From contig JASEEY010000003.1 of the NCBI GenBank assembly GCA_030018435.1, positions 34,950-98,949 on the forward strand: DNA of 64,000 nucleotides, written 5' to 3'. The DNA is from Methanocellales archaeon (lineage in GTDB: Archaea; Halobacteriota; UBA148; JAUWXC01). Positions 5,537-47,526 of the stretch are shown here, in pieces. The position numbers and the translations under genes were made by a program. The notes beneath the pieces are model-generated. The model did not search any database, had not been told where the DNA came from, and worked only from the letters and a program-made list of their open reading frames with translations. Position 1 is the stretch's first letter, and every line of letters begins with the position of its first letter.

Positions 5537-8500
5537 ATGGTGGGCGATACAGTTTCCAGATGGGAGGAATTTTTAGAGCAGTATTACAAGGAGCATATCC
5601 TTCAGTTAGCCAGTACGTATCCAGAGGAGCGCAGCCTGTTCATAGAATTTCCAGATATCGTTAAAAAAGATCCTGAGCTAGCGGACGCCCTGTTGGAGCG
5701 ACCTCATGAAATTCTACCAGATCTGGAGGAGTCCCTAAGAACCTTCGCCACACCGACTGGTGAGCCACTGGATGATGCGCACGTCAGGATAGTTAAAATT
5801 CCCGATAGAGTTCAGATCAGAAAATTGAGGAGTGACAACATATCCAGACTGATCGCGATAGAGGGGCTGGTGCGCAAGGCAACGGCCGTACGCCCCAAAA
5901 TTGTCAACGCTGCCTTTGATTGTTTGAGGTGTGGCCATACCACCCACAAGGAGCAGACTGGAACGAAGTTTACCGAGCCCTATGCGTGTGAGAATGAGTC
6001 GTGCGACAGGAAGGGGCCGTTCAAATTGAATTTAAACGAATCGATTTTTGTGGACGCACAGAAGCTGCAGATTCAGGAATCCCCAGAGGATTTAAGGGGT
6101 GGAGAACAGCCTCAAACCCTGGACGTAAACGTGGAGGATGACCTAGCAGGAATTGTGACTCCAGGTGACAGGATTATCGTCACCGGTATCCTCCACTCCT
6201 ACCAGCGAACCTCTCCAGTGGGGAAGAGCACGTTTTTCGATGTATACCTTGAGTGCATCTCCATCGAGATACAGGAGCAGGAATTCGAGGAGCTGGACAT
6301 CTCCAAGGAAGAAGAAAAGGAGATTCTCAAGCTATCAGAGATGCCAAATATTTACGAAACTGTGATCAATTCGATTGCGCCTACCATTTTTGGGTATAAC
6401 GACATTAAGGAGGCGATAGCACTTCAGTTGTTCGCTGGCGTGGCAAAGTTGCTTCCGGATGGCACTAGGGTGAGAGGCGATGTTCATGTGCTCCTGGTCG
6501 GAGATCCAGGCACCGCTAAATCCCAATTGCTCAGGTACATCGCGACACTCGCCCCTAGGGGCATTTATACGAGTGGCAAGGGCACGACGGCAGCTGGGCT
6601 AACAGCGACGGCTGTTAGGGACGAATTTGGAGAGGGGCGCTGGACTCTTGAGGCGGGTGCACTCGTGCTCGCAGACAAAGGTGTCGCTGCAGTTGACGAA
6701 CTCGACAAGATGAGAGATGAGGATAGAAGCGCATTGCATGAGGCGATGGAACAGCAATCGTATCATCCATCCACTGAGATACTGCTTTCTGATGGACGAA
6801 AGGTGAAAATTGGGGAGTACGTTGATGGTTTGTTTAATAAAAATGAAGATAAGATCATCAAAGGTGTAGATTGCGAGATACTACCTTTGTGCGCTAACGC
6901 GCTAAAACGTAGCATGCTCCCAAGAGAATTCCTGTTTAGCACCGACTTCAATGCGATTTTTAAACTACCGATCGATAGAGTGAGCAGGCATGTCCCACCA
7001 GATAGGTTTGTCCAGATCAAATACTCTAATGGTAGAGAGATCATAGTCACACCAGAGCACCCCATATACGTATTCAGACATGGGGCAGTAGGTTGCGTCC
7101 CAGCGATAGACGTCGAGGAGAATGATTTTATTCCAGCCCCTAGGGTTGTGCCAAACTATGATTCAGTAATAGAACTACATCAAATCGACAGAACACACGT
7201 GCATGAAAAAGACATCGTTTTTCCTGGCACTCTTTCTCCAGACTTAGCAGCAATATTGGGATTCCTGATATCTGAGGGACATTCATACCGAGGATCAAGC
7301 GCTGAAATTGGTTTTTCGAATACTAATAATGGACTATTGGATAGCATGTCAAGGTTAATGATGAACGTATTTGGCGTTAACTATTCTTGGAACTCCAATG
7401 CTTATGGTACTATAACCCTGAGGTATGTCTCCACTCGCCTTCACAGATGGTTTGCTGACAACTTCCCTGAGATGATGCGAACGGCAAAGGATAAACGAGT
7501 ACCAGCGAAGATTCTTGGTACATCAAAGGATAACATAAGGGAATTCTTGAGGACTGCATTTCTTGGAGATGGCGGGGTGGAATCGACAGCGATCTGCTAT
7601 CGCACAGCATCTAAAGGACTTGCAGAGGATTATCAAGATCTACTACTTAAGCTAGGCATAGCTTCACGAATTGTCCAAGATGTGCATAACCATTCCTATA
7701 AAACGTATATCGCGGGTGACTCGCTAGGGGCATTCTACGATCAAATTGTCGATTTTGAGGATGTTAGGTGCTGCAAAATACGGTCGATGGTATCAAAGAG
7801 TAAAGAGACGCTACGACACCATGATGTAGTCCCAACCGATGTCGCACGTGTTGTGATAAAATCCCTGAAATCGTTGGGGATGGTAAATGATGGTTACTTC
7901 TGTCGGCATCTCAACAAAGATCATGGAATAACTGTCGATACGATGAAGAAATACGTACATCGCTTACGGGATCGATATGAGGAAATACAAGAAGCGCTCA
8001 AACTTGACATTTCACTGCGTGAGTTGCGGGATAGGGTTAACTGGTCGCAGCGACAGCTAGCAGATGAGATGGGCGTTTTCAGAAGTACGATAGATTACCT
8101 GGAGCGTGGTGGATATAATGAGGAGAGAAGAGGAGAAATCCTACAGAAAGCAAAACAAGTGATATCTAACTCGATATCTAGCACCTTAAAGAATATCTTG
8201 GAGCTCGACCGATTATTGAACTCAGATATTAGATTTTTACGCGTAACAAGTGTGAAGGTGGTTCCAAACAAGGGCAAGTATAGGACAAATTGGGTTTACG
8301 ACGTTACAGTTGAGCCGACACACAATTTCATAAGCCATGGCGTGGTGCTACACAACACGGTCAGCATAGCCAAGGCAGGTGTCATGGCCATGTTGAGGTC
8401 GAGATGCGCGCTACTTGGCGCTGCTAATCCCAAATATGGGAGGTTTGATAGGTACGAGTCAATAGCAGAACAGATCAATTTGCCACCTACGCTTTTGTCC

Positions 8501-9217
8501 AGATTTGACTTGATTTTCCCCCTTGCAGATGAGCCAGATGAAACGCTGGATACAAACATCGCGGAGCACATCCTGCGGGCGCATTATGCCGGAGAGTTGG
8601 CAGAACACGCTAAGAAATTTCCTTCTGGAAAAATCACCAAGGAGGACGTGAAGTCTGCCATGGAGATGATTCAGCCAGAGATCGGGCCTGAGCTGTTCAG
8701 AAAATACATCGCATATGCCAAGCGAATATACCCAATAATGGTGGATGATGCCAAGCAGCGGTTGACCGAGTTCTATTTAGGACTGCGCAAACAGGGCATA
8801 GGTATCGATTCACCAGTTCCCGTGACCGCACGTTCCTTAGAGGCACTGGTGCGGTTAGCGGAGGCTTCTGCAAGAATTAGGCTGAGCGATGCCATCACAG
8901 AAGAGGATGCAAATAGAGCTATAAGAATCGTGGAATCGTGTCTGAGGAAGGTGGCAGTCGATCCTGAGACAGGGCAGTTCGATGTTGATATAATAGCAGT
9001 CGGAACCAGCAAGAGCCAGCGAGATAAGATCAAAATACTCAGGGAGATCATACGGGAACTTGAGAAAGAGCATGGGGGGAGAGCGCCTAAGGAGGATATC
9101 TATGACAAGGCACAGGCGCAGGGTATCTCCAAGGATATAGTCGAGGAGCTCATCGCCAAACTAAAACAACAGGGAGACATCTTCGAGCCCGCTACAGGGT
9201 ACCTCAAATTGGCATAG
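5537..9217 (+). CDS. mcm: Replicative DNA helicase MCM, interrupted by an in-frame intein
   Basis: MCM N-domain zinc motif CLRCGHTTHKEQ...C, GDPGTAKSQLLRYIATLAPRGIYTSGKG, VDELDKM, SRFDLIF; intein between EAMEQQ and TVSIAKAG. Confidence 0.95.
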   Translation: MVGDTVSRWEEFLEQYYKEHILQLASTYPEERSLFIEFPDIVKKDPELADALLERPHEILPDLEESLRTFATPTGEPLDDAHVRIVKIPDRVQIRKLRSDNISRLIAIEGLVRKATAVRPKIVNAAFDCLRCGHTTHKEQTGTKFTEPYACENESCDRKGPFKLNLNESIFVDAQKLQIQESPEDLRGGEQPQTLDVNVEDDLAGIVTPGDRIIVTGILHSYQRTSPVGKSTFFDVYLECISIEIQEQEFEELDISKEEEKEILKLSEMPNIYETVINSIAPTIFGYNDIKEAIALQLFAGVAKLLPDGTRVRGDVHVLLVGDPGTAKSQLLRYIATLAPRGIYTSGKGTTAAGLTATAVRDEFGEGRWTLEAGALVLADKGVAAVDELDKMRDEDRSALHEAMEQQSYHPSTEILLSDGRKVKIGEYVDGLFNKNEDKIIKGVDCEILPLCANALKRSMLPREFLFSTDFNAIFKLPIDRVSRHVPPDRFVQIKYSNGREIIVTPEHPIYVFRHGAVGCVPAIDVEENDFIPAPRVVPNYDSVIELHQIDRTHVHEKDIVFPGTLSPDLAAILGFLISEGHSYRGSSAEIGFSNTNNGLLDSMSRLMMNVFGVNYSWNSNAYGTITLRYVSTRLHRWFADNFPEMMRTAKDKRVPAKILGTSKDNIREFLRTAFLGDGGVESTAICYRTASKGLAEDYQDLLLKLGIASRIVQDVHNHSYKTYIAGDSLGAFYDQIVDFEDVRCCKIRSMVSKSKETLRHHDVVPTDVARVVIKSLKSLGMVNDGYFCRHLNKDHGITVDTMKKYVHRLRDRYEEIQEALKLDISLRELRDRVNWSQRQLADEMGVFRSTIDYLERGGYNEERRGEILQKAKQVISNSISSTLKNILELDRLLNSDIRFLRVTSVKVVPNKGKYRTNWVYDVTVEPTHNFISHGVVLHNTVSIAKAGVMAMLRSRCALLGAANPKYGRFDRYESIAEQINLPPTLLSRFDLIFPLADEPDETLDTNIAEHILRAHYAGELAEHAKKFPSGKITKEDVKSAMEMIQPEIGPELFRKYIAYAKRIYPIMVDDAKQRLTEFYLGLRKQGIGIDSPVPVTARSLEALVRLAEASARIRLSDAITEEDANRAIRIVESCLRKVAVDPETGQFDVDIIAVGTSKSQRDKIKILREIIRELEKEHGGRAPKEDIYDKAQAQGISKDIVEELIAKLKQQGDIFEPATGYLKLA
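6758..8356 (+). mobile_element. MCM intein, 533 aa, with LAGLIDADG-type homing endonuclease region and a helix-turn-helix segment
   Basis: Starts SYHPSTEILLSDGRKVKIGEY (Ser1), block-like ILGFLISEGHS and FLRTAFLGDGGVES (DOD motifs), ISLRELRDRVNWSQRQLADEMGVFRSTIDYLERG HTH, ends VEPTHNFISHGVVLHN with Thr+1. Confidence 0.92.
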
Positions 9218-34985: not shown

Positions 34986-35112
34986 GCGGGGGTTGCCAAG
35001 TCTGGCCAACAACCTTTTTGCAAGCAAAAAGCTTGACCAAAAGTTGGCTAAAGGCGCAGCGTTCAGGGCGCTGTCCCGTAGGGGTTCGAGGGTTCAAATC
35101 CCTTCCCCCGCA
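34986..35112 (+). tRNA. tRNA-Leu(CAG) with about 42-nt insertion in D-loop
   Basis: GCGGGGG/CCCCCGC acceptor, GCC/GGC D-stem, CAGCG-TTCAGGG-CGCTG anticodon arm, variable arm, GAGGG-TTCAAAT-CCCTT T-arm; D-loop expanded. Confidence 0.85.
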
Positions 35113-35140
35113 CCTTTTTCTTTAGAAAAGAAAAAGCTGC

Positions 35141-35192
35141 ACCAAAAAGAAATACCAAAAAGAAATACCAAAAAGAAATACCAAAAAGAAAT
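35141..35192. repeat. 13-bp tandem repeat, 4 perfect copies of ACCAAAAAGAAAT
   Basis: 35141-35153, 35154-35166, 35167-35179, 35180-35192. Confidence 0.95.
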
Positions 35193-47329: not shown

Positions 47330-47404
47330 CTTTTTTTGGTCTATATTAAAGCTATTGCTATTCTCCCACAACATATATAACGACAGAAAATACATTTTAA
47401 GGAG

Positions 47405-47526
47405 GGCCGGTAGCTTAGTCAGGCAGAGCGATGGGCTCTTAACAAACTTTTAAAAAAGTTTGATCAAAACTACCTTTTGATTGAGGAGAGACCCATAGGT
47501 CAGGGGTTCAAATCCCTTCCGGCCCG
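47405..47526 (+). tRNA. tRNA-Lys(CTT) with intron of about 48 nt at canonical position 37/38
   Basis: GGGCCGG/CCGGCCC acceptor, ATGGG-CTCTTA[intron 47443-47490]A-CCCAT anticodon arm, CAGGGGTTCAAATCCCTT T-arm. Confidence 0.9.

Follow-up and report, generated by a model that had tools for sequence, protein, structure and literature searches.

Introns that interrupt archaeal tRNA genes away from position 37/38, including in the D-arm, have been described with noncanonical bulge-helix-bulge (BHB) motifs in Thermoproteales, Thaumarchaeota and Caldiarchaeum, where the presence of similar introns in different tRNAs has been read as intron transposition (PMC4090602, PMC4033280, PMC3293823, PMC8450103). 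Reviews link such unusual introns to splicing endonucleases of the (alpha beta)2 or epsilon2 type and describe the Euryarchaeota with alpha2-type enzymes as having few introns, located at the canonical site (PMC4090602, PMC4033280). Introns outside position 37/38 have also been reported in thermophilic euryarchaeal methanogens of the Methanopyrus and Methanothermobacter type (PMC3218864, PMC4033280). The alpha'2 splicing endonuclease (EndA) of A. fulgidus has been described as limited to canonical BHB motifs (PMC12397907).

Here we analyse a stretch of 64,000 nucleotides (the window) from an archaeon whose lineage published records assign to Methanocellales. It contains a tRNA-Leu(CAG) gene with an insert in its D-loop. 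Judging from sequence comparison, this insert is very probably a noncanonical archaeal tRNA intron that is excised by protein enzymes, after which the exons are ligated to yield a normal tRNA. The intron itself belongs to a known kind, the archaeal BHB intron. As far as we have checked, what is new is the order-wide occupation of a single D-loop site in one isotype, the pairing of this site with an alpha'2-type EndA, intron lengths of up to 241 nt and a repeat shared with RNase P RNA. Our search of the open-licence literature yielded no earlier description of D-loop introns for this clade.

The interrupted tRNA-Leu(CAG) gene and its probable splice motif

The gene (Table 1) encodes a class II tRNA-Leu with 42 nt in excess of a normal D-loop, as an earlier sequence-only reading of the window had correctly described in sequence and coordinates. 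The intron is located in the D-loop at tRNA positions 21/22 rather than at the canonical position 37/38. It is bracketed by an imperfect direct repeat (GGCCAA/GGCTAA), because of which the boundaries first assigned to the insert, although the insert itself is real, were shifted a few nucleotides from the inferred splice sites. A run of A nucleotides leaves the intron register ambiguous by 1-2 nt. Immediately downstream of the gene, positions 35139-35190 hold a short tandem repeat of about four units of ACCAAAAAGAAAT.

Table 1. Coordinates of the tRNA-Leu(CAG) gene and its parts in the window
Feature	Position	Strand	Remarks
tRNA-Leu(CAG) gene	34986..35112	+	Discriminator A included; CCA not encoded
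5' exon	34986..35009	+	Ends in GGCCAA; inferred splice site (2/3 rule in bulge)
D-loop intron, 42 nt	35010..35051	+	tRNA positions 21/22
3' exon	35052..35112	+	Starts AGGCGC; anticodon CAG at 35064-35066
Central helix 5' strand GGCC	35004..35007	+	tRNA positions 18-20a; pairs with GGCT 35046-35049
5' bulge AAC	35008..35010	+	5' cleavage site past 2nd nt
Central helix 3' strand GGCT (intron end)	35046..35049	+	
3' bulge AAA	35050..35052	+	3' cleavage site past 2nd nt
Palindromic hairpin element CAACCTTTTTGCAAGCAAAAAGCTTGACCAAAA	35010..35042	+	Both orientations seen in introns of other tRNA genes
Inner stem right arm CAAAAGTT	35038..35045	+	2 nt less than sister genes' CAAAAAGGTT

Standard annotation tools handle this gene poorly. 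ARAGORN calls no tRNA in the window and thus misses tRNA-Leu(CAG), and the only window match at the Rfam gathering score is a tRNA-Lys at 47404-47526. In a whole-genome Rfam search, tRNA-Leu(CAG) is recovered at 36.6 bits, the lowest score among 32 matches. Since tRNA finders misread such genes, the tRNA sets of genomes that carry them will appear incomplete. The tRNA-Lys(CTT) gene (47404..47526, + strand) provides a comparison, as its intron, 49 nt long, occupies the usual position in the anticodon loop. This intron begins with CAAACTTTTAAAAAAGTTTGATCAAAAC, a second hairpin type that is common to tRNA-Arg(TCT) and in part to other introns of the same genome. Elsewhere in the window, positions 5537-9217 carry a 1226-aa MCM helicase-like ORF with an apparent intein, as judged by eye from the translation.

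The splice motif of the window gene reads GCC AAGUCU GGCC AAC (inner stem) GGCU AAA GGC, where GGCC:GGCU is the central helix and AAC and AAA are the bulges. The predicted cuts join GGCCAA to AGGC. The BHB check proposed in the sequence-only reading recovers the same arrangement of a 4-bp helix and two 3-nt bulges in related genes, with all four central pairs present in 45 of 48, a set drawn partly from a database scan whose pattern favours central-helix pairing. In the other three, all for tRNA-Leu(TAA), the helix contains a C-A mismatch. Every aligned gene of the order has a 5' bulge of the form AAN and a 3-nt 3' bulge ending in A.

As a control, we used a set of 34 genes that had been retrieved purely by sequence similarity and in which length determined the 3' site. 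Full pairing is present in 31 of these, and slides of 1 to 8 nt in either direction reduce the count to between 0 and 10. In the same set, the single exon position that is free to vary, a pyrimidine, and the facing purine of the intron co-vary (T-A in 16 genes, C-G in nine, T-G in six and C-A in three; Fisher p = 0.012, with rows that are related and not independent).

In-silico excision yields an 84-nt tRNA-Leu body in 44 of the 48 genes. The excised body is 102 nt long in three Asgard genes, which also carry an intron at the usual site, and 95 nt long in one gene. ARAGORN calls tRNA-Leu for 47 of the 48 spliced sequences versus five of the 48 unspliced sequences, and 13 other unspliced sequences are called wrongly. 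In addition, the D-loop of uninterrupted tRNA-Leu genes in other families (e.g. GCCGAGTCAGGCCAAAGGC) resembles the spliced one.

The motif is relaxed, as had been supposed in the sequence-only reading. It departs from the strict hBHBh' form in that six nucleotides on the 5' strand (AAGUCU) separate the D-stem from the central helix. As the outer and central helices do not stack on each other, the 3' bulge faces these six nucleotides, and the 3' site thus falls within a loop. We propose a precursor in which GGCC of the exon (nucleotides 18-20a) base-pairs with GGCT at the 3' end of the intron. The two arms of the intron would fold back on each other as an inner stem, leaving one 3-nt bulge exposed on each strand. 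An alpha'2-type EndA would then cleave both bulges, and a ligase would presumably join the halves to produce the normal 84-nt tRNA-Leu body with the D-loop AAGTCTGGCCAAA.

Occurrence across genomes and the splicing endonuclease

The genome that contains the window (G000; 1.02 Mb, 29 contigs, about 95% complete) carries D-loop introns in four of its five tRNA-Leu genes. These introns are 42 nt (CAG), 45 nt (GAG), 44 nt (TAA) and 145 nt (CAA) long, and the TAG gene is uninterrupted. About 22 of 38 tRNA genes in this genome are interrupted by our count, which is based on Rfam and similarity searches. The same searches of this roughly 95% complete assembly recovered no second, uninterrupted tRNA-Leu(CAG), the finding that the sequence-only reading had named as counting against its proposal.

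Rather than being peculiar to this one gene, the D-loop insert is a trait of the entire order (the Met12/Met33H/UBA148 clade). Specifically, the same D-loop site of tRNA-Leu is interrupted in all 11 of the order's genomes searched, comprising the window genome and ten others, with intron lengths ranging from 28 to 241 nt. The insert is thus not a chance feature. The congener G003, which we take to be Met33H, is a complete chromosome on a single contig of 987,146 bp. All five of its tRNA-Leu genes (CAG, GAG, TAA, TAG and CAA) have a D-loop intron, and an Rfam tRNA search with ARAGORN run on the best loci detected no uninterrupted tRNA-Leu in this chromosome. In the 1,067,436-bp genome G004, taken as Met12, tRNA-Leu(TAG) is uninterrupted. 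We propose that the site was already occupied in the ancestor of the order.

One further G004 locus (L104; C1:701600-702150) is a tRNA-Leu(CAG) gene with a very long D-loop insert. Its 3' acceptor strand does not pair with the 5' strand and is followed by a repeated stretch; this gene may be damaged or rearranged.

The description of the host as a methanogen-type genome does not hold, because the MCR alpha family (mcrA) has no match among the order's eleven genomes. Met12, the named member of the order, comes from serpentinized springs and has been reported not to be a methanogen (PMC11176372).

Similar introns also occur far outside this order. A pattern scan of one genome per species returned 41 stretches. 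Inspection of these confirmed the same motif in D-loop introns of Lokiarchaeia, Hodarchaeota and Heimdallarchaeota, as well as of an ANME-2 genome, a Methanomassiliicoccus and Euryarchaeota archaeon CSMAG_2293. The true spread is probably wider, since the pattern restricts the intron to 22-52 nt between its two parts. The Asgard tRNA-Leu(TAA) genes at L107, L113 and L138 have two introns, one in the D-loop and one of 18 nt in the anticodon loop. Two tRNA-Leu-like sequences from Nitrososphaeria (L115 and L137) matched the pattern, and were excluded due to an odd layout that does not fit the D-loop intron arrangement. Matches in Pseudomonas, Lamprobacter, Moraxella, Omnitrophota and Bythopirellula proved on inspection not to be tRNA-Leu.

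The subunit type of the splicing endonuclease, which the sequence-only reading had suggested checking, could be assigned from the genome. EndA of G000 is encoded by one ORF with two PF01974 repeats (C23:27256-28053), located about 7 kb outside the window, and the order's other genomes also have a two-repeat, single-ORF EndA. Among solved structures, the A. fulgidus enzymes 1r0v and 2gjw are closest in sequence to this EndA, and the active-site H and K residues align. Judged by this architecture, the order's EndA is of the alpha'2 type. A two-repeat ORF likewise encodes EndA in the ANME-2, Methanomassiliicoccus and CSMAG_2293 hosts of D-loop introns, and most of the Asgard genomes tested have two separate EndA genes.

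Palindromic sequences in intron interiors

The window intron has a nearly palindromic interior, and the same sequence fills other tRNA-Leu D-loop introns in either orientation. Identical sequence also occurs in other kinds of tRNA gene. A run of 35 nt is present in the anticodon-loop intron of a G003 tRNA that reads as Ser(TGA), and a run of 36 to 37 nt is present in the anticodon-loop intron of a G004 gene. ARAGORN calls the latter Arg(TCG), although judged on the tRNA body it is probably Glu(TTC). For another set of modules, the tRNA-Leu(CAA) intron of G000 has 34 nt in common with the RNase P RNA of G009, where they lie in the P3 arm in opposite orientation. Overall, we compared inserts from different RNA genes in 768 pairs, of which 77 share at least 12 nt. 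Twenty rounds of dinucleotide shuffling gave 0 to 4 such pairs, with a longest run of 15 nt.

In four genomes (G000, L193; G003, L186; G004, L189; G009, L188), palindromic hairpins of the kinds seen in tRNA introns enlarge the P3 arm of RNase P RNA. In relatives from family f3, such as G005, the P3 arm is 15 nt long.

A 27-nt core of the element, allowing up to three mismatches, is found in 42 of 397 genomes of the phylum, most of which belong to one other family (f8), and the reversed pattern has no match in the same 397 genomes. Within the window's order, every copy located by the pattern lies in a tRNA intron. The copies in f8 are near relatives of the window element that differ by one or more mismatches, and they are scattered between genes, mostly away from detected RNA genes. 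The two ends of the f8 repeat are CAAACC and ACCAAAA. It is an interspersed palindromic repeat, CAAACCTTTTTGCAAGCAAAAAGCTTTACCAAAA (L225-L253), that in places occurs in tandem at 43-bp spacing.

A Y1/RAYT-type transposase was considered as the mover of these palindromes and rejected, as its presence is unrelated to the repeat: no Y1 transposase is found in G000, G003, G004 or G015. Viral carriage was also rejected, because neither form of the repeat is matched exactly in the viral contigs.

Presumably, intron interiors have repeatedly given way to short palindromic elements or been inverted within them, a movement that we infer from the sharing of sequence between RNA genes. A simpler account would be gene conversion among tRNA-Leu paralogues, in which case no mobile element is needed. 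The near-identical exons of the tRNA-Leu genes would favour conversion, and most of the order's exact copies indeed lie within tRNA-Leu introns. We nevertheless consider this account unlikely to suffice, as the exact runs described above extend to the Ser- and Arg(TCG)-called introns and to RNase P RNA, are often in opposite orientation and between genera, and exceed the longest run in the shuffled sequences. It also does not address the close relative of the repeat that is scattered intergenically in f8, where a genome can hold as many as 28 copies. The broader model, to which we give a little less than even weight, is that small palindromes are mobile among structured RNA genes and settle at sites that tolerate a hairpin. 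These would be introns, from which the BHB would allow their removal, or P3 of RNase P RNA, in which they would remain. The palindromes would thereby build and rebuild tRNA introns, with an alpha'2 EndA processing the relaxed D-loop site. The shared, orientation-flipped palindromes would then offer a specific candidate for whatever drives the gain of tRNA introns.

Fate of the insert and comparison with described systems

The sequence-only reading had offered two fates for the insert, namely splicing from a relaxed BHB or retention as an extra arm. The central helix and bulges, the constant 84-nt body, the EndA type and the G003 genes together favour splicing. Retention in the mature tRNA as an extra D-loop arm draws on the folding predictions and on RNase P RNA, where the same palindromes are apparently unspliced. 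Folds constrained to form the BHB lie 2 to 6 kcal/mol above the minimum, with a gap of 5.2 kcal/mol for the window gene. Its minimum-energy structure is one unbroken stem, closed on the D-arm, without a 5' bulge. This fold reflects the window's CAAAAGTT arm, in place of CAAAAAGGTT in its sisters, which makes the CCAAC/GTTGG stem the best fold and hides the 5' bulge. The stem named in the sequence-only reading is one of two competing folds. The window copy, with its shortened inner stem, may be spliced less efficiently; alternatively, the missing 2 nt may result from an assembly error.

In established tRNA structure, G18 and G19 make the contacts between the D-loop and the T-loop. A retained arm would bury both nucleotides in a stem, making the usual contacts impossible. 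Moreover, the intron varies from 28 to 241 nt across the order and the excised body remains constant at 84 nt, and the pattern of bulges and central helix recurs in distant archaea. Retention is thus very improbable.

We give still less credence to the idea that the window gene is a pseudogene or is being lost. Its inner stem is 2 nt short, standard tRNA finders miss it, and loss of tRNA-Leu(CAG) alone is conceivable because tRNA-Leu(TAG) could read CUG by wobble. However, its exons are intact and fold normally, and the insert is present in all five tRNA-Leu genes of the complete G003 chromosome. Since all five are interrupted and no uninterrupted copy was found, a pseudogene explanation of the trait as a whole is untenable. 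Assembly of tRNA-Leu from split or permuted genes, suggested when the first similarity search returned lone 5' parts in G009 and G000, can be dismissed for the cases seen: each 5' part is followed on the same strand, 139 to 241 nt downstream, by its 3' part, and the sequence between them is a long intron.

If the insert is spliced as we propose, the order would contradict the rule given in reviews for alpha2-type Euryarchaeota, as roughly 22 of the 38 tRNA genes in the window genome are interrupted and most tRNA-Leu genes are apparently spliced in the D-loop. It also offers a direct test of the cleavage range of the alpha'2 enzyme. More broadly, these introns would widen the known range of archaeal tRNA introns and suggest a mobile repeat as one source of them.

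REP-type repeats and Rickettsia palindromic elements are short, many-copy hairpins located inside or beside genes. The palindromes described here differ in that the exact copies found in the order lie in tRNA introns and no Y1 transposase tracks with them. With the introns of Thermoproteales, Thaumarchaeota and Caldiarchaeum, the D-loop introns have in common the 3-nt bulges and the 4-bp central helix. Their lengths reach 241 nt, compared with 11 to 129 nt in one previous study (PMC4090602). The euryarchaeal precedents are three thermophilic methanogens, whereas the present order lacks mcrA. Unlike the hosts in Thermoproteales, Thaumarchaeota and Caldiarchaeum, those described here are Halobacteriota with a two-repeat alpha'2 rather than an (alpha beta)2 EndA, and the introns occupy one site in a single isotype, tRNA-Leu, across nearly all of its isoacceptors.
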